Part shown: positions 15,256-25,938 of the stretch, one piece after another
Layout: each line of letters begins with the position of its first letter
Numbering within the stretch: the first letter of the stretch is position 1
Assembly (NCBI GenBank): GCA_029246545.1
Contig: JAQWMX010000007.1
Coordinates: 1-64,000, forward strand
Source: Gammaproteobacteria bacterium
GTDB taxonomy: Bacteria; Pseudomonadota; Gammaproteobacteria; Pseudomonadales; Pseudohongiellaceae
Reading direction: 5' to 3'
Length of the DNA: 64,000 nucleotides
Position numbers and translations under genes: made by a program
The notes under the pieces: model-generated
What the model saw: only the letters and a program-made list of their open reading frames with translations
Database searches by the model: none
What the model was told of the DNA's origin: nothing

Positions 15256-16707
15256 TTAGAAAGGGTAATGCTCAGGCTGAGTAGCCACAGTAATCCAACG
15301 CAATTCTGTAAATGCATCAATACCTGCTTTCCCACCAAAACGGCCATAACCAGAATTCTTTACACCACCAAAGGGAATCTGAGCCTGATCTTGAACTGTA
15401 GGACCATTCACATGGCATATACCAGAGTTAATTTTACGAGCTACTTGCAGACCACGTGCAATGTCACGAGTGAAAACAGCAGCTGATAAACCATACTCAC
15501 TATCGTTAGCAATTTTAATTGCTTCTTCTTCATCTGCCGCTCGAATCACACCGACAACTGGTCCAAAAGACTCTTCACTGTAAATTCTCATCTCAGGTGT
15601 TAATTCTGAAACCACATTGGCTGGCATTAATACACCATCAGCATCGCTACCGCAAAGTCTGGTAGCACCTTTGTCTACAGCATCAGCAATCAAACTCTCA
15701 ACGTGATCAACTGATTTTTGATGCACCACGGCACCCAAAGGCGTTTTACCTTCTGCAGGATCACCAACAGCAAGTTGATCAACTTTAGTTTTAAATTTCG
15801 CAAGGAAATCATCGGCAATTGCATCAACTACGACGACTCTTTCAGTGGACATACATATTTGGCCTTGATTCATGAATGCACCAAATGCAGCCGCATCAAC
15901 AGCAGCATCTAGGTCTGCATCATCCAATACAACCAAAGGTGCTTTGCCACCTAATTCAAGCAATACTGGCTTAAGGTTTCTTGCCGCACGTTCAGCAATA
16001 ATTCTTCCTACATTGGATGAGCCCGTGAAATTAATTCTTCGCACTGCCGGATGATCAATTAATGCCCCTACAATTTCGCCAGCATCTTCAGGCGTGTTAG
16101 TGATGAAATTAACAACACCATCACCCAAGCCAGCTTCCATAAAGGCACTGGCAATAAGAAAATGTGTCCGTGGACATAGTTCAGAGCCTTTAAAAATAAC
16201 CGTGTTACCACAGGCGAGAGGTACAGCAATAGATCTGACACCTAGAATAATTGGAGCATTCCATGGAGCTATGCCTAAGATGACCCCCACAGGCTCTCTC
16301 AATCCCATTGACAATTGACCTGGCTTGTCTGAAGGAATCACTTCTCCACTAATCTGGGTAGTCAGAGAAGCTGCTTCTCGAATAATTGAAGCAGCCAGCA
16401 TTAAGTTAAAACGTGCCCAACCCTCTGTTGCGCCGATTTCTTCCATCATGGCTGAAACGAAATCATCTGCTTTAGCTTCAAGAGCATTTGCAGCATTATT
16501 AAGTGCCGCTCTTCGGGCATTTGGGGTTTGTGCTGACCATTCCGGGAAAGCTGCGCCTGCAGCTTCTGCTGCACTATTTGCATCGGCAACTGATGCTGCC
16601 GCTGCTACAGTGACTAAGTCTCCTGACAATGCACTTTTAATTTCTAAGTGCTTGCTAGTGTCTTGGCTTTTGCCGCCTATTAATAATGGAATGTTTGATG
16701 TAGACAT
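15256..16707 (-). CDS. NAD(P)-dependent aldehyde dehydrogenase, aromatic-aldehyde type (pchA-like)
   Basis: A 483-residue aldehyde dehydrogenase. The catalytic glutamate lies in LELGGKAPLVVLDD and the nucleophile is C285 in NQGQICMSTER. The N-terminal region and APWNAPIILGVRSIA resemble vanillin, salicylaldehyde and 4-hydroxybenzaldehyde dehydrogenases. Two genes away lie cytochrome, Tat-signal protein and flavoprotein genes like pchC-pchX-pchF. In Pseudomonas, as I recall, pchA encodes the 4-hydroxybenzaldehyde dehydrogenase of p-cresol degradation. The inferred role is oxidation of the benzaldehyde made by the flavocytochrome. Specificity is not proven by sequence. Confidence 0.88.
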   Translation of the reverse strand: MSTSNIPLLIGGKSQDTSKHLEIKSALSGDLVTVAAAASVADANSAAEAAGAAFPEWSAQTPNARRAALNNAANALEAKADDFVSAMMEEIGATEGWARFNLMLAASIIREAASLTTQISGEVIPSDKPGQLSMGLREPVGVILGIAPWNAPIILGVRSIAVPLACGNTVIFKGSELCPRTHFLIASAFMEAGLGDGVVNFITNTPEDAGEIVGALIDHPAVRRINFTGSSNVGRIIAERAARNLKPVLLELGGKAPLVVLDDADLDAAVDAAAFGAFMNQGQICMSTERVVVVDAIADDFLAKFKTKVDQLAVGDPAEGKTPLGAVVHQKSVDHVESLIADAVDKGATRLCGSDADGVLMPANVVSELTPEMRIYSEESFGPVVGVIRAADEEEAIKIANDSEYGLSAAVFTRDIARGLQVARKINSGICHVNGPTVQDQAQIPFGGVKNSGYGRFGGKAGIDAFTELRWITVATQPEHYPF

Positions 16708-16906: not shown

Positions 16907-18220
16907 CTATTTAATAATTAAAATACGGCTGTTAGCTGGGTATAGCCATTCAACTCCTCTTTCAGTCACTATTGCATCATCTTCAAGAGGAATTCGGATT
17001 TTTGCATTATCCCAGTCAGGGTTAGCTGTGTAGGCAAATAGTTCGATAGAAATAAGCGTTGAAGGCCTTAGTTCATAAGTTAGTTGTTCGGGGTTAAAAA
17101 ATGCCAGAGAAGGGCCAATACCATGACCCCAGTTACCTACAGAGTGAGGTCCTATTACTACATCGGTTACCGAAGAGTCTGAACTTGGCTGATTGAAGGC
17201 TATTTGATTAAAACCAGCAGCAGTAATAGCAGCTAAAGTTACATCAAGTGCAATTTGTGCTGAAGCCGCAGGCTTGATGCTCGTCTTCATAACGTTTCGA
17301 ACTTCGAGAGCCTGATCGAAGGCAAATTGAATACCTTGTGGTGCTTCAGTTTCACCATCGCGCAATACATAGGCGATTCTTTTCATATCTGTGTAAAAGT
17401 CTAAATAACCAACACCCCAATCAAGCATAAGCAAGTCGCCTCGCTGAATGATTCTGTCAGTTGAGGTTGCAGCAATACCTTCTGGGCCCGTTATATAAAC
17501 AGAAGGCATGTCGAAGGAAGATTCCAAACCTCGTTCTAATTGTTGGTCAGACATCCACCAGGCAACATCTTCTAGGGTAGTTACTCCAGGAGTAATGACT
17601 TCGTTTGAAAATGCCCTTTCAGCGATCTCACGACTAATTTCACCTGCTTCAGCGAAGGCAGCGATTTCTATGGCAGTGCGAGTTGATCGGAAATCTGAAA
17701 CAAAACGTTCCGCTGAAACTAAGCGATTACCATAAGTGCCAAGTGTCTCTGTTAGATGTAAATAGGATGTGTGTGATAACCCATCGGCGCCGCCAATAGA
17801 ATTTGCCATGTTGATACCAATGCGATCAGGATTCCTAGCTGCAACATAGTCTGTAAGTTCATCAGGACCTCCAAAATAATCGTAAACGCCGCATTGTTCT
17901 AAGCGATAACCGCCTACTCCTAATACTGCTCGTTCAACTCTATCGCCTTGATTAGTAAATATATAATAAGCCCAGCCGGTCACATAACCTCTACCAAGAG
18001 CTTCCCAAAGGGGGTCAAGATTGCCTTCTCGCATCACCACTATCCACATATCAAGATTATTGTCTTGCATGGCTGCCGGCATAATCAGATCAAATTTTTC
18101 AGCGCGTATTTGGCACATGCGCTCCCAGCGGGCGCGAGCTTCTTGAGAATATGCAGGACTAGAAACTAATAATGAAATGGATGCCAGAAATAAGGTGACA
18201 GAAATGAGTCGTTTGATCAT
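16907..18220 (-). CDS. Exported M24-family (Xaa-Pro aminopeptidase-like) protein
   Basis: A 437-residue protein with a signal peptide ending near SSPAYSQ and an M24 'pita-bread' domain in the C-terminal half. The five metal ligands can be traced: Asp in LLMLDWG, Asp in DFYTDMKR, His in GNWGHGIGPS, Glu in ISIELFAY, and a Glu in PLEDDAIVTERG. It is probably a periplasmic metallopeptidase. M24 also includes creatinase-like hydrolases, and an exported member beside aromatic catabolism genes need not be a peptidase. It is followed on the same strand by the aldehyde dehydrogenase (200-base gap) and is divergent from the cytochrome gene. Confidence 0.82.
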   Translation of the reverse strand: MIKRLISVTLFLASISLLVSSPAYSQEARARWERMCQIRAEKFDLIMPAAMQDNNLDMWIVVMREGNLDPLWEALGRGYVTGWAYYIFTNQGDRVERAVLGVGGYRLEQCGVYDYFGGPDELTDYVAARNPDRIGINMANSIGGADGLSHTSYLHLTETLGTYGNRLVSAERFVSDFRSTRTAIEIAAFAEAGEISREIAERAFSNEVITPGVTTLEDVAWWMSDQQLERGLESSFDMPSVYITGPEGIAATSTDRIIQRGDLLMLDWGVGYLDFYTDMKRIAYVLRDGETEAPQGIQFAFDQALEVRNVMKTSIKPAASAQIALDVTLAAITAAGFNQIAFNQPSSDSSVTDVVIGPHSVGNWGHGIGPSLAFFNPEQLTYELRPSTLISIELFAYTANPDWDNAKIRIPLEDDAIVTERGVEWLYPANSRILIIK

Positions 18221-18469: not shown

Positions 18470-18775
18470 TTGAAAATCATAAAAATTATTTGCTTGCCAT
18501 TTAGTTTGCTGTTCTTAAATTCGGCAGGCTGGTCGCAATCAGCCAACGATTGGGAATCAGGCGAGCAAATTTTCGATAAGGTATGCCAGTATTGTCATAT
18601 TAATGATGTTGGGCCGATCTTAACGGGCCGTAATTTACCTCCAATTTATTTTTCTACCATTGCTCGCAATGGGCAAAACGCAATGCCAGCTTTTAGGCCG
18701 ACTGAATTATCTGCTGCAGACCTTGAAAAAGTCGCAAATTTTCTGAGTCAAAGTCTTAGTGAGGAAAACCAATGA
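18470..18775 (+). CDS. Class I c-type cytochrome, likely cytochrome subunit of a PCMH-type flavocytochrome
   Basis: A 101-residue exported monoheme cytochrome. The signal peptide ends near GWSQS; the heme motif is C39-Q-Y-C42-H43 and the likely axial ligand is M72 in NAMPAFRP. The TTG start is backed by GGAAGGAG at 18455-18462. The stop overlaps the next start (ATGA), and the flavoprotein gene follows one gene later. Size and context match PchC/EhyA, the small electron-accepting subunit of p-cresol methylhydroxylase and eugenol hydroxylase. It would pass electrons from the flavin to the respiratory chain in the periplasm. Confidence 0.88.
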   Translation: MKIIKIICLPFSLLFLNSAGWSQSANDWESGEQIFDKVCQYCHINDVGPILTGRNLPPIYFSTIARNGQNAMPAFRPTELSAADLEKVANFLSQSLSEENQ

Positions 18776-19269
18776 GTGTTGAGTTTTCCAGACGCCAAAG
18801 TTTGAAAATGATTGGTGCTGCTGGAATACTATCAATCATGCCTTTGGATGCGGTTTCCGCTGGTGATTCAAATCATGCATTTATCATTTTCAGTAAAGAA
18901 AATGAAATGGATGTTTTTACACAGACTATAAATAAGTCAATAGATACAAGTACTATCCAAGTTAACCTCAAAAGTTATGAAAGCTTTTTATCAATATCTG
19001 ATTTGCCTAAAGGGACACTACTTATAGGCTTAGTTAATGAAGCTGAAAAAGTATTGATCGATGCTATTGTGCAAAATCGAAGTGGGATCATAAATACCAC
19101 GGCACGTGTTAATGCTATGAATACTGAAAACTCAATTGCTTTAATTCCGGAAATTGCCGATTCGACAGTTAATTCTGCGCTCTCTTTTTCAAGCGATCAC
19201 AATTTTGATGAAGTCCAAAATAGTGAGTTATCTTCGGGTTCCTTAATTAGTTTTTATGCTTATTTGTAA
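18772..19269 (+). CDS. Tat-signal protein between cytochrome and flavoprotein genes (pchX-like position)
   Basis: A 165-residue protein of unknown function. The N-terminus carries a twin-arginine signal: S-R-R-Q-S-L-K, then MIGAAGILSIMPL and a cleavage-type AVSAG. The remaining 130 residues contain no cysteine, heme or metal motif that I recognise; the central segment (NTTARVNAMNTENSIALIPE) is predicted only as a small alpha/beta domain. It overlaps the cytochrome gene by 4 bases and precedes the flavoprotein by 55 bases. Its position equals that of pchX (unknown function) in the Pseudomonas pchACXF operon, as recalled. A role as export or assembly partner of the flavoprotein is my inference. 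Confidence 0.75.
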   Translation: MSVEFSRRQSLKMIGAAGILSIMPLDAVSAGDSNHAFIIFSKENEMDVFTQTINKSIDTSTIQVNLKSYESFLSISDLPKGTLLIGLVNEAEKVLIDAIVQNRSGIINTTARVNAMNTENSIALIPEIADSTVNSALSFSSDHNFDEVQNSELSSGSLISFYAYL

Positions 19270-19324: not shown

Positions 19325-20866
19325 ATGGCTGAATTCAATGTTTTACCTGATGGCGTTTCTGCTGAAGATTTCGGTAATGCTATCGAAGAATTTGCTGCAA
19401 TTGTTGGCGACGAAAATGTATTTGTTGCTGCTGATAATCTAAGCAGCTACAACAAAATAATGATTCCAGCTGACAGTGATGATCACGCAGCTTCAGGTGC
19501 GCTGGCACCTGCTTCGACTGAAGAAGTTCAGGCGATCATCGGGGTTTGCGATAAATATATTATTCCGGTTTGGCCTATATCTACAGGTAAAAACTTTGGT
19601 TATGGATCGGCTGCTGCTGCAACTAGGGGTCAGTTGATTCTTGATTTACGCCGTATGAATAAAATTATTGAAGTTGATGCTGAACTGGGTACTGCACTCA
19701 TAGAGCCGGGAGTTACCTATAAACAATTAAAAGACTACCTGGTTGAAAATGAAATTCCATTATGGCTTTCACCACCAGCGCCTTCTGCTCTTGTAAGCCC
19801 AGTTGGCAATGCTGTAGACAGAGGTGTTGGTTATACCCCTTATGGTGATAATTTTTTTATGTCATGTGGAATGGAAGTAGTGTTAGCAGATGGTCAAGTT
19901 CTTCGTACTGGTATGGGTTCAATGCCAAACTCCACAAGCTGGCAGGTATTCAAATGGGGTTATGGGCCATCTTTAGATGGCATATTTACTCAATCCAATT
20001 ATGGCATAGTGACCAAACTTGGTATGTGGTTGATGCCACAACCTCCGGCGTTTAAAGCATTTGTTATTCGATTCCCTGATGATGCAGATATTGAAAGAGC
20101 CGTAGAAATTTTGAGACCTTTACGGATTAATCAAATTATTCCTAATGCTGTTGTTATAGCGCATGCTCTTTGGGAAGGCGGGGCAGAGGTAGTGCGCTCT
20201 GACTATTACCAAGGTGAGGGATCAATTTCTGATGAGGCTGTTGAAACCATGAAATCTGATTTAGGTATGGGTGCCTGGAATATTTATGCCGGCCTTTATG
20301 GTACACCTGATCAGATTGAGCTTAACTGGAATATTGTGAAAGGTGCTTTCGAAGGCTCTGGGGCAATTATTCAGGAAGAAGAAGATATGGTAGGGAATGC
20401 TTCTTTCGAATATCGCGCTAAATTGATGCGTGGCGAAATGACCTTAAAAGAGTTTGGGCTTTATAACTGGCGAGGAGGCGGTGGTTCAGCCTGGTTTGCG
20501 CCAGTCGCTCAGGCCAAGGGTCCCGAAGCTCTGAGTCAAATGGAGCTAGCTAAAGAAATATTAGGTAAGTATGGATTTGATTATGTGGCTGAGTACATTA
20601 TTGGTTGGCGTGAAGGGCATCATATTATTGACCTGTTGTTTGATAAAACTAATGCAGAAGAAACTGCGAAAGCAGGTCAGTGTTTTGATGAGCTTTTAAG
20701 GGAATTTAGTGAGCGTGGCTGGGGATCTTATCGCACGAATATTGCTTACATGGATAAGGTTGCTGATACCTTTGGGCCAGTTAAAAAAGATGTTAATCAA
20801 CGTATTAAACGGGCCTTGGATCCAAAAGGCATCATAGCTCCTGGTAAATCTGGTATTTATACTTAA
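19325..20866 (+). CDS. FAD-linked 4-cresol dehydrogenase / vanillyl-alcohol-oxidase family flavoprotein (pchF-like)
   Basis: A 513-residue flavoprotein. The N-terminal PCMH-type FAD-binding domain has PVWPISTGKNFGYGSAAA and the aspartate/arginine stretch LILDLRRMNKIIEVDAELG. The C-terminal substrate domain contains GKYGFDYVAEYIIGWREG and ends DPKGIIAPGKSGIYT, typical of the PchF/VAO group. It is expected to oxidise the para-side chain of 4-alkylphenols by hydride transfer and water addition, with covalently bound FAD. A cytochrome gene two positions upstream favours dehydrogenase (cytochrome-linked) over oxidase. No signal peptide is visible, although the partner cytochrome is exported. A GGAG ribosome-binding site precedes the ATG. 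Eugenol or vanillyl alcohol are alternative substrates. Confidence 0.92.
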   Translation: MAEFNVLPDGVSAEDFGNAIEEFAAIVGDENVFVAADNLSSYNKIMIPADSDDHAASGALAPASTEEVQAIIGVCDKYIIPVWPISTGKNFGYGSAAAATRGQLILDLRRMNKIIEVDAELGTALIEPGVTYKQLKDYLVENEIPLWLSPPAPSALVSPVGNAVDRGVGYTPYGDNFFMSCGMEVVLADGQVLRTGMGSMPNSTSWQVFKWGYGPSLDGIFTQSNYGIVTKLGMWLMPQPPAFKAFVIRFPDDADIERAVEILRPLRINQIIPNAVVIAHALWEGGAEVVRSDYYQGEGSISDEAVETMKSDLGMGAWNIYAGLYGTPDQIELNWNIVKGAFEGSGAIIQEEEDMVGNASFEYRAKLMRGEMTLKEFGLYNWRGGGGSAWFAPVAQAKGPEALSQMELAKEILGKYGFDYVAEYIIGWREGHHIIDLLFDKTNAEETAKAGQCFDELLREFSERGWGSYRTNIAYMDKVADTFGPVKKDVNQRIKRALDPKGIIAPGKSGIYT

Positions 20867-20941
20867 GCTTGGTCGTTGTCATCGATTAACTCTTAGTTAA
20901 TAATTAATGCTAATAGGTAAATCGGTAACCTTGTATTAAGT

Positions 20942-23086
20942 ATGTTAATCCATGAAAAAAGTCATAATAGACCTGTAGAACTTGGCTCTTACCCGCTAGA
21001 GGCTTTAACTCAAGACCTAAGCATTATTGAACAGGAAAGCCAGCGTCCAGCTATAGCAGGCTCACTTTATCTTGGTTCAGAAAAAAAATTAGCCCAAGCT
21101 TCTAATGCCTATTTAGGCTATTTAGCTCCTTTCTCACAAGGCGATATTGTTCCGCATAAAGCACCAGTGCCTGACTCTTTAGAGCGCAGGTCTGTTGATA
21201 TAAAGGGCGCGATATATTTTCTCGATGCTTCTCATGCAGGTATCTGCAAAATTCCTCAAAATAGCTGCCTAACTAATACTGAGCGATGTGAGCACACATT
21301 TGCCATTATCATCCTTGTAGCCTATGGCAGATTACCCGAACAGGAAAACCTAGCGTATGAGTGGTTAAGCGGAGTCGAGCATGACATTGCTCGATTGCGC
21401 TGTGTTGAAATTGGTGCTTCGATTTCAGGCTACATTCGGAATTTAGGTTTTGAAGCCAGGTCTCACTTTGAAGGTAATACTTTACTTGATTTAAATCGTC
21501 TGGCTGTCTTATCTGGGGTAGCTGAACGCACAGAAAATCAGTTAGATGTCCAAAGTCCATTTTTAGGAAAAAGTTTTGCTTTGGCGGTTATTTCTACTAA
21601 CTATGAATTGGCTGTAGATATACCCTACAAAACAGGCTCCAGAGTTGGTCAATTTTCTCACTGGCGCGGAATTAGCGGCGCGATGTCATCGCGTGAAATT
21701 AGTCGAAGGAAAAAGCGCCAAAGTCATCTCAGCCGTTACCCAATGGAGCAAGTAAAAAGAATAGACCGACCGACAACACTTATTCTTGATGATGAAGTTC
21801 CTCGCGTACCAAAGCGTGCAGCATTTTTTGCACGAGCAGCTCATGGCGATTTGGGTGCTAAGGCACAAAAAGAAGTGACAAGGTTTGCCTATAAACATCC
21901 TATGACTGGGGGCATGATGCCCTTATTAAGGACGCTTGCTGGCAAGCAGGAGGGTGAAGTAACACAACTACAAAGCACAGACTTAACTGATCCAAATGCC
22001 AACGCAAAAGCCCTGAAGTCACTTGCTTATCATTTGGGAGCAGATTTAACCGGCATTTGTGAAATTCCTCGCTATGCTTGGTATAGCCATCATATGGATG
22101 GCAGAGAAATTGAAACTTATCATCGTTATGCCGTTGTTATGCTGATTGATCAGGGACACGGGACTATGGAAGGCGCGAGCGGTGATGATTGGGTATCAGG
22201 CGGGCAGTCTATGCGTGGTTACCTGCGTGGTGCAGAGATTGCTGGCGTTATGTCAGAGTTTCTGCGAGCAAAAGGGCACTCTGCTCGGCCACATACCCAA
22301 GCTGATAGTGACGTTTTACATATTCCGCTGGTCTTGTGGGCGGGTTTAGGTGAGCTAAGCAGGATAGGGGAGTTGGTGCTCAACCCTTATGTTGGTCCTA
22401 GATTTAAATCAGTCGTATTAACAACAGATATTCCGCTCGAAATTGATAAGCCGATAGATTTTGGACTGCAGTATTTTTGTCAAAACTGTTTAAAGTGCGC
22501 GCGCGAATGTCCGGTTAGTGCAATTCCTTTTAAAGAAAAAGTGATGTTCAATGGTTACGAAATATGGAAGCCGGATGTTGAGCGTTGTACACGATATCGG
22601 GTAACAAACCAGAAAGGTTCGGCTTGTGGTCGCTGTATGAAAACGTGCCCTTTGAATAAAGTTGTCACGGCAGATGGATCAATATTACATCGAGTTGGTA
22701 CCTGGTTAGGGGTTCATGCGCGCTGGCTCAAACCAATTATGGTGCCAATCGCTGTGTTTTTTGATGACTGGTTAGGTTATGGCAAGCGTAATCTTGTTAA
22801 AAAATGGTGGTTAGACCTAGAAGTGGTTGATGGTGTTTGTGTTATACCCAAGGCCACTAATGAGCGGGATATTGATGTGACTAGAGATACCTCTGGTGAT
22901 AAATCTCCAGTAGGCTATTATCCTGCCAATGTCATGCCGCCACCTAATTCAACCGAACCGGTTTTGATTAATCATCGTGATGCAATTAAACGCAGTGCGG
23001 AAGTAGAAACTGTCAATGCTGCATTCACTAGGCACAATAATAAAGGTGCAAAACCTGAACACTATATTCCGACAAAAAATATTTAA
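20942..23086 (+). CDS. Cytosolic cobalamin-dependent reductive dehalogenase, NpRdhA-like
   Basis: A 714-residue protein without Tat or Sec signal. Residues about 357-510 form the corrinoid-binding domain, followed by two ferredoxin motifs: C513-x2-C516-x2-C519-x3-C523 and C549-x12-C562-x2-C565-x3-C569. Residues about 85-240 repeat the corrinoid domain without Fe-S motifs; compare AGICKIP with TGICEIP. This duplication and the length match the catabolic dehalogenase NpRdhA of Nitratireductor. Its catalytic Tyr426, Lys488 and Arg552 (numbers from memory) correspond, with a constant +1 offset, to Y427, K489 and R553 here. Expected reaction: reductive removal of ortho-halogens from phenols in the cytosol, using cob(I)alamin or cob(II)alamin and an external reductase. 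It lies 75 bases after the PCMH-like gene. QueG-like non-dehalogenases share the fold but lack this layout. Confidence 0.85.
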   Translation: MLIHEKSHNRPVELGSYPLEALTQDLSIIEQESQRPAIAGSLYLGSEKKLAQASNAYLGYLAPFSQGDIVPHKAPVPDSLERRSVDIKGAIYFLDASHAGICKIPQNSCLTNTERCEHTFAIIILVAYGRLPEQENLAYEWLSGVEHDIARLRCVEIGASISGYIRNLGFEARSHFEGNTLLDLNRLAVLSGVAERTENQLDVQSPFLGKSFALAVISTNYELAVDIPYKTGSRVGQFSHWRGISGAMSSREISRRKKRQSHLSRYPMEQVKRIDRPTTLILDDEVPRVPKRAAFFARAAHGDLGAKAQKEVTRFAYKHPMTGGMMPLLRTLAGKQEGEVTQLQSTDLTDPNANAKALKSLAYHLGADLTGICEIPRYAWYSHHMDGREIETYHRYAVVMLIDQGHGTMEGASGDDWVSGGQSMRGYLRGAEIAGVMSEFLRAKGHSARPHTQADSDVLHIPLVLWAGLGELSRIGELVLNPYVGPRFKSVVLTTDIPLEIDKPIDFGLQYFCQNCLKCARECPVSAIPFKEKVMFNGYEIWKPDVERCTRYRVTNQKGSACGRCMKTCPLNKVVTADGSILHRVGTWLGVHARWLKPIMVPIAVFFDDWLGYGKRNLVKKWWLDLEVVDGVCVIPKATNERDIDVTRDTSGDKSPVGYYPANVMPPPNSTEPVLINHRDAIKRSAEVETVNAAFTRHNNKGAKPEHYIPTKNI

Positions 23087-23134: not shown

Positions 23135-24727
23135 ATGAAAAAAATAAAAATAATATTACTCATTCTTTTGTTTCCCTCAACATTATTGGTTGCTCAGGAA
23201 CAAGCCTTTACAGGTCTCAAGGCAGATGCTGTGGATGCAGTTGATGACATGGAAAAACTTACTCAAGTGGTCGTTGATACTCTATTTTCTTATTCTGAAT
23301 TAGGCTTTCAGGAATTTGAAACCCAAGCTTATTTAACAGGAATACTTGAAGAAAATGGCTTTGATGTGGAGCTTGGTGTTGCCGGTATTCCTTCAGCATG
23401 GTTGGCTAGCTGGGGTAGCGGCTCACCCGTCATAGCATTAGGTTCTGATGTCGATGGAATTCCAAGAGCCTCTCAGATGCCGGGAGTAGCCTATCGACAA
23501 CCAATGATTGAAGGTGCACCTGGACATGGAGAAGGACATAACTCTGGTCAGGCAGTGAACCTTGTGGCTGCTCTTGCGGTGAAAGAAATCATGGAGCGAG
23601 AGAATTTACCTGGCACAATTGTTTTGTGGCCTGGCATTGCAGAGGAACTGTTAGGAACTAAAGCCTGGTATGCCAGAGATGGGATGTTTGATGGGGTGGA
23701 CGCTGTTTTATTCACACACGTAGCCAACAATTTGGGCGTTAGTTGGGGCAGAGGTCGTGGCACTGGCTTAGTCTCAGTAGAGTATATGTTTGATGGAGTA
23801 GCTGCTCATGGAGCAGGAGATCCTTGGCAAGGACGCAGTGCCTTGGATGCCGTTGAACTGATGAATGTGGCTTGGAATTTCCGACGTGAACATTTGCACC
23901 CATTACAACGATCTCATTACGTCATCAGCAATGGTGGTGATCAGCCAAATGTCGTTCCAAGTTACGCCAGTGTTTGGTACTTCATTCGAGAAATTACTGC
24001 CGAGGGTATTCGTGAGAATTTCGCAACTCTGCAGCGTATTGCTGAAGGTGCAGCAATGATGACTGACACTCAAGTTAGTAGACGTATTGTTGGTGCAGCC
24101 TATCCACGTCATTTTAATCGCCCTATAGCTTTAGCGATGGATGAGAATATCCAAAACGTTGGGTTACCTATTTGGTCAGAGGATGATCAACAATTCGCTG
24201 TTGCCTTACAAGAATTGATGGGTTCTGAAGAAACTGAAGGATTGGCAACAGAACTTACGGGTATAGGAGAGCCATTAGAGAATCCTGTCTCTGGAGGCTC
24301 TGATGATATCGGCGACGTTTCTTGGAATGTTCCAACGGTGACACTCAGATTTCCTTCGAATGTTGGTGGCTTGCAAGGCCATCATTGGTCTAGTGCAATG
24401 GCCATGGCAACGCCTATAGCCCACAAAGGAGCAGTTGCTGGTGCAAAAGTTATTGCAACAACCATGATTGATTTATTACAAGATGAAACTCTTGTAGAAG
24501 AGGCGCATAACTATTTTGAAAATGTACAGACAGCTGAAGAACAATACGTGTCTTTTGTTGGGCCGGACGATGCACCAGCTATTGAAAAGAATGCTGAAAT
24601 CATGGAGCAATATCGTCCTTTGTTAGAAGAGTTTTATTTCGATTCTACACAGTACGATACTTATCTTGAGCAGTTAGGAATCGAATACCCGCAATTAGAA
24701 CCAAACACCATTCAGCCTGGTCAATAA
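23135..24727 (+). CDS. Exported M20-family amidohydrolase (AbgB-like)
   Basis: A 530-residue metallo-amidohydrolase with a signal peptide (MKKIKIILLILLFPSTLLVA). The M20 catalytic core shows YSELGFQEFET, ALGSDVDGIP, the histidine/glutamate cluster GHGEGHNSGQA, and a lid domain with VAAHGAGDPWQGRSALDAVE. GGSDDIGDVSWNVPT is characteristic of the AbgB (p-aminobenzoyl-glutamate hydrolase B) subgroup. It is probably a periplasmic amidase releasing an amino acid or aromatic amine. It starts an operon with an aminotransferase, permease and protease behind it; GGAG precedes the start. Confidence 0.87.
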   Translation: MKKIKIILLILLFPSTLLVAQEQAFTGLKADAVDAVDDMEKLTQVVVDTLFSYSELGFQEFETQAYLTGILEENGFDVELGVAGIPSAWLASWGSGSPVIALGSDVDGIPRASQMPGVAYRQPMIEGAPGHGEGHNSGQAVNLVAALAVKEIMERENLPGTIVLWPGIAEELLGTKAWYARDGMFDGVDAVLFTHVANNLGVSWGRGRGTGLVSVEYMFDGVAAHGAGDPWQGRSALDAVELMNVAWNFRREHLHPLQRSHYVISNGGDQPNVVPSYASVWYFIREITAEGIRENFATLQRIAEGAAMMTDTQVSRRIVGAAYPRHFNRPIALAMDENIQNVGLPIWSEDDQQFAVALQELMGSEETEGLATELTGIGEPLENPVSGGSDDIGDVSWNVPTVTLRFPSNVGGLQGHHWSSAMAMATPIAHKGAVAGAKVIATTMIDLLQDETLVEEAHNYFENVQTAEEQYVSFVGPDDAPAIEKNAEIMEQYRPLLEEFYFDSTQYDTYLEQLGIEYPQLEPNTIQPGQ

Positions 24728-24762: not shown

Positions 24763-25938
24763 ATGAGTAATGCGTCGTACAAACCTGGAAGGCATTTTTT
24801 GCAAATTCCAGGACCTTCTAATGTCCCAGATAGTGTTTTACGAGCCATGGCGCAGCCAGTGATGGATCACAGGGGGCCAGATTTCCCTGCTTTAACCTTT
24901 AATATTCTTGAGCAAATTAAACCTGTTTTTAATACGGAGTCACCCGTTTTTATTTACCCTGCATCAGGTACTGGGGGTTGGGAGTGTGCTTTGCTAAACA
25001 CGCTATCTCCTGGTGATAAAGTCCTGGCTTTTGAGACGGGACATTTTGCAACTTTATGGAAAGAAGTGGCAGACAAGTTGGGTTTAGAAGTGCAGTGGGT
25101 TACGGGTGACTGGCGCCATGGCGTAGATCCTGCAAAAGTTGAAGAGGTTTTGAGAGAGGACAGTGAGCACAACATTAAAGCTGTACTTGCTGTGCACACT
25201 GAAACATCTACTGGTGTTACCAGTCGGATAGATAAAGTTCGTCAAGCTATTGATGCAGCTGCTCATCCAGCTTTATTTTTTGTCGACGCTGTTTCATCTT
25301 TAGCCTGTACAGAATATTTCCATGATGAATGGAAAGTTGATGTCACAGTCAGCGGATCACAAAAAGGCTTAATGCTTCCTCCTGGATTAAGTTTTAATGC
25401 AGTAAGTGAAAAAGCCTTGGCAGCATCAAAACAGTCTAAATCTCACCATTCTTATTGGCGTTGGGATGCGATGCTCAGCTTTAACGCAAAAGGTTATTAT
25501 CCCTACACGCCAAGTACAAACCTGATGTATGGCCTTGAAGAAGCGCTTTCCCTATTACACCAAGAAGGTTTAGCTAATGTTTTTGCTCGGCATCATCGAT
25601 TTGCGGAAGCTACTCGACGGGCTGTAGGCGCTTGGGGCTTAGAAAATATTTGTTTAAACCCTGATGAGTTTTGTAATTCAACAACGGCTGTTTTAGTGCC
25701 TGAAGGAAGTGATGCTGATGCATTACGCACAATAATTTTAGAGCGTTTTGATATGTCTCTGGGTACTGGCTTAGGTAAACTGAAAGGGAAAATATTTAGA
25801 ATAGGCCACATTGGGGACTTCAACGAATTAATGCTAGCAGGCACACTCGGTGGCGTTGAAATGGGTCTCAGTCTTTCTGATATTCCTTATCAAAAGGGAG
25901 GTGTCAATGCTGCATTGGACTACCTCGCTCAAAGCTAA
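24763..25938 (+). CDS. Class V aminotransferase (alanine/serine--glyoxylate type)
   Basis: A 391-residue PLP enzyme of the AGT/SGA family. It begins GRHFLQIPGPSNVPDSVLRAM...MDHRGPDFP, which is typical of serine- or alanine-glyoxylate aminotransferases, and carries the Schiff-base lysine K201 in VSGSQKGLMLPPG. The cofactor-phosphate region ASGTGGWECAL is also present. Expected reaction: amination of glyoxylate to glycine with serine or alanine as donor. It lies 35 bases after the M20 gene and 33 before a GntP permease. A second, diverged class V enzyme is encoded at 47720. Confidence 0.9.
   Translation: MSNASYKPGRHFLQIPGPSNVPDSVLRAMAQPVMDHRGPDFPALTFNILEQIKPVFNTESPVFIYPASGTGGWECALLNTLSPGDKVLAFETGHFATLWKEVADKLGLEVQWVTGDWRHGVDPAKVEEVLREDSEHNIKAVLAVHTETSTGVTSRIDKVRQAIDAAAHPALFFVDAVSSLACTEYFHDEWKVDVTVSGSQKGLMLPPGLSFNAVSEKALAASKQSKSHHSYWRWDAMLSFNAKGYYPYTPSTNLMYGLEEALSLLHQEGLANVFARHHRFAEATRRAVGAWGLENICLNPDEFCNSTTAVLVPEGSDADALRTIILERFDMSLGTGLGKLKGKIFRIGHIGDFNELMLAGTLGGVEMGLSLSDIPYQKGGVNAALDYLAQS

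Follow-up and report, generated by a model that had tools for sequence, protein, structure and literature searches.

The window, the whole 64-kb stretch of DNA that was analysed, carries the genes of a p-cresol methylhydroxylase followed by a gene for a reductive dehalogenase (RdhA). The four genes stand on a single strand in the order pchC-pchX-pchF-rdhA, with an aldehyde dehydrogenase gene before them on the opposite strand. The features of the locus are as follows:

15256..16707, minus strand: aromatic aldehyde dehydrogenase with a putative pchA-like role, closest to salicylaldehyde dehydrogenase (6qhn, E 3.9e-210) and vanillin dehydrogenase (9ihb, 9.1e-209), then to 4-hydroxybenzaldehyde dehydrogenase (9jw2, 1.1e-102)
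16907-18220: M24 peptidase-family gene, between the aldehyde dehydrogenase gene and the pch genes
18470..18775, plus strand: pchC, cytochrome c subunit (CxxCH), best PDB match the p-cresol methylhydroxylase cytochrome 1dii_C (E 2.3e-15)
18772..19269, plus strand: PchX-like protein of 165 amino acids between pchC and pchF, with a Tat-like SRRQSLK start
19325..20866, plus strand: pchF, p-cresol methylhydroxylase flavoprotein (1dii_A, E 3.9e-200; 280/505 residues identical, 55%)
20867..20941, plus strand: pchF-rdhA gap of 75 bp, with one 10-of-12 promoter-like match inside
20942..23086, plus strand: rdhA, an open and complete reading frame of 714 amino acids, predicted cytosolic catabolic reductive dehalogenase
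23135-24727: M20 peptidase-family gene, downstream of rdhA
24763-25938: gene for a BhcA-like aminotransferase (440.7 bits against a cut-off of 650), adjoining a GntP permease gene

The p-cresol methylhydroxylase is recognisable in both subunits. Eight of the eleven PchF positions examined are identical, including Y384, E380, E427, D440 and R474, and positions 38, 73 and 512 differ; the list and the roles of these positions are our assumption, with Y384 taken to be the covalent flavin link. A flavoprotein with the covalent-flavin tyrosine and an adjoining c-type cytochrome subunit are thus both in place, as in PchCF. On PchF itself no obvious signal was seen by eye. The small gene between the two subunits overlaps pchC by 4 bp and sits where we presume pchX to belong, pchACXF being, as we take it, the name of the p-cresol methylhydroxylase operon; no text for the name ‘pchX’ was found in the open-access literature. 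Its product matches nothing in Pfam or NCBIfam, its predicted structure is poor (mean pLDDT 39.7), and the SRRQ motif is present in all five copies of the genus. The sequence is otherwise fast-evolving, with 35-51% identity to the window copy. The PchX-like protein might carry folded PchF out through the Tat pathway.

No terminator-like site was found in the 75 bp between pchF and rdhA, and scans of the region for promoters (16 against a mean of 18.5) and terminators (7 against 6.8) were no richer than shuffled sequence. Downstream of rdhA, the M20-type amidohydrolase, the BhcA-like aminotransferase and the GntP permease have no evident link to it. The BhcA-like gene and the permease gene lie beside the pch locus in four of the five genus genomes (the window, G050, G051 and G052). 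The GC content of rdhA (0.438) falls inside the range of nine neighbours (0.345-0.444), so a foreign origin is unsupported by composition. At its start (1-670) the window holds the end of a 23S rRNA gene and then a 5S rRNA gene; no tRNA was found anywhere in the 64 kb.

RdhAs are best known from anaerobic respiration. The earlier note had read the present one as a cytosolic, catabolic, NpRdhA-like enzyme of a presumably aerobic host, neither QueG-like nor respiratory, and profile scores, residues and fold support this reading. RdhA is a full-length homologue of NpRdhA: residues 7-703 match NpRdhA residues 6-698 (phmmer, 4ras, E 2e-192), with 47% identity (321/684 aligned residues). It passes the NCBIfam reductive dehalogenase model TIGR02486 (185.6 bits against a cut-off of 160.35) and falls far below the cut-off of the QueG model TIGR00276 (22.3 bits against 200); a best match to epoxyqueuosine reductases, which the note had named as fatal to its reading, was not what was found. 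The catalytic half is repeated, without clusters, in the N-terminal half (hhalign of the N- against the C-terminal profile: probability 99.6, E 3e-24, 180 columns), as the note had also proposed, and the secondary structure of the predicted model agrees with such a vestigial corrinoid domain. Inspection of the N-terminus (MLIHEKSHNRPVELG) by eye revealed no twin-arginine motif, in keeping with the claim that a Tat signal is absent. Nor is a reductase fused to the enzyme, which is colinear with NpRdhA to its C-terminus and has no reductase domain in Pfam; BhbA-type fused proteins of the same order reach 1,065-1,114 amino acids, against 714 here. An AlphaFold2 model built from 30 sequences (mean pLDDT 87.3, pTM 0.92) aligns best to NpRdhA (6zxx_C; Z 44.8, rmsd 2.1, 669 residues), against Z 22-24 for respiratory enzymes and 13-14 for QueG.

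The catalytic residues and cluster cysteines, with two pocket positions that differ from NpRdhA, are encoded as follows:

21875..21877, plus strand: V312 codon, where NpRdhA has K307
22220..22222, plus strand: Y427 codon, corresponding to NpRdhA Y426
22298..22300, plus strand: Q453 codon, where NpRdhA has N452
22406..22408, plus strand: K489 codon, corresponding to NpRdhA K488
22478..22510, plus strand: first 4Fe-4S motif, C513-C523 (Cys 513, 516, 519 and 523)
22586..22648, plus strand: second set of 4Fe-4S cysteines, C549, C562, C565 and C569
22598..22600, plus strand: R553 codon, corresponding to NpRdhA R552

In the alignment, Y427, K489 and R553 fall on the catalytic Y426, K488 and R552 of NpRdhA, all with the offset of +1 that the earlier note had given, and none is off the active site. 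The two ferredoxin-type motifs that it had described comprise eight cysteines, each kept in 88 of the 89 alignment rows; the one row without them is a badly extracted fragment of 38 aa (L104). Y427 is likewise present in 88 of 89 rows, and K489 and R553 in 86 each, the exceptions being the same fragment and two divergent RdhA-like rows (L103 and L105).

Twelve positions of the NpRdhA pocket, with roles as given in the accessible part of PMC7565698, were compared with RdhA. Eight are identical (F290, F291, F310, S422, M423, Y426, K488 and R552 in NpRdhA numbering), among them the proton donor Y426. The remaining four differ, from NpRdhA to RdhA: K307 to V312, P311 to A316, A419 to G420 and N452 to Q453. 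According to the same part of that source, K307 makes a salt bridge with the carboxylate of the benzoate at the mouth of the pocket, in only one of the three conformations in which the ligand is bound, the non-productive one, and N452 shifts slightly upon ligand binding. Across the 89 rows the K307 position is occupied by R in 58, V in 10, A in 9, S in 5, I in 2 and K in 2, with a gap in 3, and BhbA carries S there. Since the contact of K307 is non-productive in NpRdhA and BhbA has a serine, the change to valine is no more than a hint, and it was rejected as proof that the substrate is neutral. Glutamine at position 453 is confined to four of the 89 rows (the window RdhA, L063, L082 and L083).

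The wider family is large: a scan of named genomes gave at least 593 pattern matches, with at least 590 encoding a relative, and 79 loci were kept among the matches listed, in which NpRdhA is the sole characterised protein, as far as we could recognise one by title. A tree made by a quick method with midpoint rooting (85 rows; L058, L103, L104 and L105 were dropped from the 89, and L132, L040 and L009 carry a long-branch warning) places the window RdhA with L063 and L082 (support 100), then L083 (99), then L129, L037, L002 and L038 (100). NpRdhA lies in a separate clade of 14 (support 100). By sequence, RdhA belongs to a described subfamily of catabolic reductive dehalogenases, in a clade other than that of NpRdhA, and it probably uses vitamin B12 to remove bromine or other halogens from phenols. 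A search for plasmid homologues returned eight records, all below 60% identity, so that no close plasmid source is apparent. At a threshold of 80 bits and with many flanks short, a PchF homologue lies near rdhA in one of the 79 kept loci among the matches listed, that of a congener (L063), and an aldehyde dehydrogenase homologue, at the same threshold, in eight of the 79.

Within the genus, rdhA is present in three of five genomes (G000, G051 and G052). The order pchC-X-F-rdhA-BhcA-GntP is kept in G051 (L100) and G052 (L101), the three RdhAs are 80-84% identical, and the gap from the pchF stop codon to rdhA measures 75 bp in the window, 100 bp in G051 and 145 bp in G052. The gene is under purifying selection (dN/dS 0.054 against L101, at a dS of about 1.9, which is near saturation). 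In G050 the locus holds pchC-X-F, BhcA, GntP and the aldehyde dehydrogenase gene, and where rdhA would lie there are 361 bp, counting the stop codon; no remnant of rdhA was found in this gap (best tblastn E for RdhA 5.8). In G049 pchCXF lies elsewhere and again lacks rdhA. The M24 gene is unmatched in the G050 locus and the M20 gene in the loci of G050, G051 and G052, suggesting that the place takes lineage-specific inserts. All five genomes have pchF (84-100% identity) and a PobA above the cut-off, with or without rdhA, so the p-cresol pathway as such needs no rdhA; the congeners that lack the gene are natural controls. Beyond the genus, 17 of 137 family genomes gave a match at E <= 0.001, four of which are of the NpRdhA-like kind (G000, G051, G052 and G072), and the other 13 show 28-32% identity over 117-138 residues. 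G072 has a 68% identical RdhA and, on other contigs, three more RdhA-like matches (L103, L104 and L105; 31-33% identity). Among 390 genomes of the order, five, including the window's own, matched at E <= 1e-80, and three of these matches are fused proteins.

The rest of the genome fits an aerobic aromatic degrader, as the earlier note had presumed of oxygen use: it has two COX1-family (PF00115) matches above the cut-off, as well as PobA and LigAB. PobA (628.8 bits against a cut-off of 538.7) is clustered with LigA, LigB and a 4-oxalomesaconate tautomerase, all above their cut-offs; the cluster also holds two Amidohydro_2 proteins and one GFO_IDH_MocA protein, which by position fit LigI, LigJ and LigC. 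Contig C17 also carries, within a few kb of PobA, what by eye looks like a homoprotocatechuate (hpa-like) gene set (L112 1963-6577). For the cofactor, BtuR is above its cut-off, and a full-length BtuB homologue (L138 5970-7808; 464.6 bits, below the cut-off of 599.7) is directly preceded by an Rfam cobalamin riboswitch (71.6 bits; L138 7909-8063, minus strand). CobS had no match in the genome, which is 97.4% complete, and was matched in 10 of 14 control genomes; the cell therefore probably imports B12, and the organism probably depends on its uptake. No ferredoxin-type reductase occurs among the eight RdhA-neighbouring proteins scanned, as the note had held. PF00175 matches a single protein of the genome, encoded on a different contig from rdhA: an Fpr-like ferredoxin-NADP reductase that scores 274.5 bits, below the cut-off of 390. 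This protein could plausibly supply the electrons, given that spinach ferredoxin with an E. coli flavodoxin reductase is reported, in the accessible part of PMC10463259, to sustain NpRdhA in vitro, slowly, at about 1 per min.

The p-cresol methylhydroxylase operon, which does not figure in the earlier note, gives the best clue to the substrate. The position of RdhA behind the p-cresol genes suggests that the bacterium can use halogenated cresols. The reading we favour, and hold with moderate confidence, is that RdhA is an accessory module which, working by the NpRdhA mechanism alongside the PchCF operon, lets the p-cresol pathway accept ortho-halogenated, likely brominated, p-cresols or their oxidation products. 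The cytosolic enzyme, dependent on a corrinoid and two [4Fe-4S] clusters, would remove an ortho halogen, most likely bromine, from phenols: the halogen would meet the cobalt, the phenol oxygen would be held by K489, R553 and S423, and Y427 would donate the proton. PchCF, probably in the periplasm, would oxidise the 4-methyl group to the aldehyde, which the aldehyde dehydrogenase would convert to 4-hydroxybenzoate, leaving PobA, LigAB and downstream enzymes to open the ring. RdhA may take the halogen off the cresol, the aldehyde or the benzoate and so clear the way for ring hydroxylation. Its electrons would probably arrive via the Fpr-like reductase and a ferredoxin, and the B12 probably by import. 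PchF would itself have to take ortho-halogenated substrates; related 4-phenol oxidases take 3-bromo-4-hydroxybenzyl alcohol, as stated in the available portion of PMC11148156. With 2,6-dibromo-4-methylphenol, JtRdhA reaches 8.2% of its highest debromination rate (PMC10463259, same part), a weak activity that places such a substrate chemically within reach.

The linkage of pch and rdhA has been observed in a single genus, in all three rdhA-bearing genomes of the five. Gene order around the locus is shared among these congeners in any case, and other genes have been inserted there, which means that rdhA may have come along as a passenger. Co-transcription with pchF is presumed, and the intergenic stretch (75, 100 and 145 bp) could hold a promoter for rdhA itself. 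The ferredoxin and reductase neighbours of the NpRdhA style are also missing beside rdhA, which counts against the accessory role. In a rival reading, RdhA would be a functional ortho-halophenol dehalogenase for detoxification or scavenging, its gene standing alone behind pchF by chance, and would act on compounds unrelated to p-cresol such as bromophenols or natural products that carry bromine. We consider this unlikely, with an appreciable minority chance of being right. It would suit the varied surroundings of close relatives, which include an FMO-like gene (L129), ankyrin/DUF1552 and P450 genes (L102) and an SDR gene (in L037 by Pfam; in L002 and L038 by membership of the same blastp cluster), the otherwise matching G050 locus without rdhA, and the many bromo- and iodophenols accepted by a known relative (PMC10463259, in the part available). 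Chance placement sits less well with a same-strand position 75-145 bp behind pchF that is kept in three genomes while their RdhAs have diverged to 80-84% identity, and with distant loci that pair RdhA with aldehyde dehydrogenase and PobA- or Lig-like genes. In one (L130) the gene of a fused RdhA has an aldehyde dehydrogenase gene behind it and P450-like and SDR-like genes in front, with ligJ/ligU-like genes close by (P450, SDR and Lig names by eye); in another (L131) a fused RdhA lies between an aldehyde dehydrogenase gene and a PobA-like gene (named by eye). The BhbA plasmid, described below, offers a further parallel. The rdhA frame of G139 (L129 8586-10760, 62% identical) starts before the FMO-like flavin monooxygenase gene has ended. 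The two overlap by some 10-50 bp, according to which start codon is used, and may be translationally coupled.

Two further readings concern the enzyme itself. That the protein has a non-dehalogenase reductive activity, or is inactive, is improbable: four of the twelve pocket positions are unlike NpRdhA and the function is assigned from sequence, but the Tyr/Lys/Arg set, S422, M423 and all eight cysteines are kept and the gene is under purifying selection. An epoxyqueuosine reductase-like or respiratory identity has a negligible probability; these proteins have the corrinoid and FeS fold in common with RdhA, and both identities were rejected on the profile scores and the Z values of the model, with the duplicated domain and the lack of a Tat motif by eye pointing the same way.

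A bolder form of the accessory-module proposal takes the pocket into account. The RdhA of this clade would have lost the basic residue at the pocket mouth, and exchanged N452 for Gln, because its substrates are uncharged halogenated p-cresols, dehalogenated ahead of the methylhydroxylase step, and not halo-hydroxybenzoates, so that one operon would couple reductive dehalogenation with oxidative attack on the methyl group in the presence of oxygen. If true, this would be a dedicated aerobic halocresol pathway. We regard it as doubtful: the rows with valine at the position of V312 include loci without a pch match, and BhbA, with its serine, is reported to be active on a carboxylated substrate (PMC13101508, in the part accessible).

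The enzyme kind is known, and RdhAs without a Tat signal have been published from aerobic and marine bacteria, as far as the available parts of PMC13101508 and PMC10463259 go, which makes the finding less surprising. The combination with the operon is apparently new: searches of the open-access literature turned up no account of an RdhA gene within an operon for p-cresol methylhydroxylase, itself weak evidence of absence. The accessory role, as we infer it, would be a concrete aerobic route by which a B12 dehalogenase extends the ordinary p-cresol pathway to halogenated substrates, in a probable B12 importer.

Among known systems, NpRdhA of Nitratireductor pacificus pht-3B (4RAS, 6ZXU) is like RdhA in length, two-domain layout, FeS motifs and the lack of both a Tat signal and a fused reductase. 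It differs in its clade, at 47% identity, and in its surroundings: the NpRdhA gene has ferredoxin/reductase neighbours (PMC10463259, accessible part), where the window has the pch operon. BhbA of Comamonas sp. 7D-2, to which the earlier note had also proposed an alignment, shares the catalytic residues (274/701 aligned residues identical), and its plasmid pBHB also carries LigA, an extradiol dioxygenase and an aldehyde dehydrogenase. JtRdhA has the same catalytic residues and accepts bromophenols (PMC10463259, same part). Both are self-sufficient through a C-terminal reductase, whereas a PDOR-type domain is absent from RdhA (no Pfam match). Ros_A3X954 of Roseobacter sp. MED193 is the Tat-less RdhA of a marine heterotroph and acts on 2,6-dibromophenol, according to the available part of PMC13101508; it seems to be without the N-terminal duplicate, judged from the motif positions given there (283-294 and 337-345) alone. 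Respiratory RdhAs have a Tat signal peptide, which by eye RdhA lacks. With the p-cresol methylhydroxylase operon the window locus has in common PchC, a protein in the place of PchX, PchF and an aromatic aldehyde dehydrogenase; it departs from that operon in the appended rdhA and in the aldehyde dehydrogenase gene, which lies on the opposite strand with the M24 gene between.
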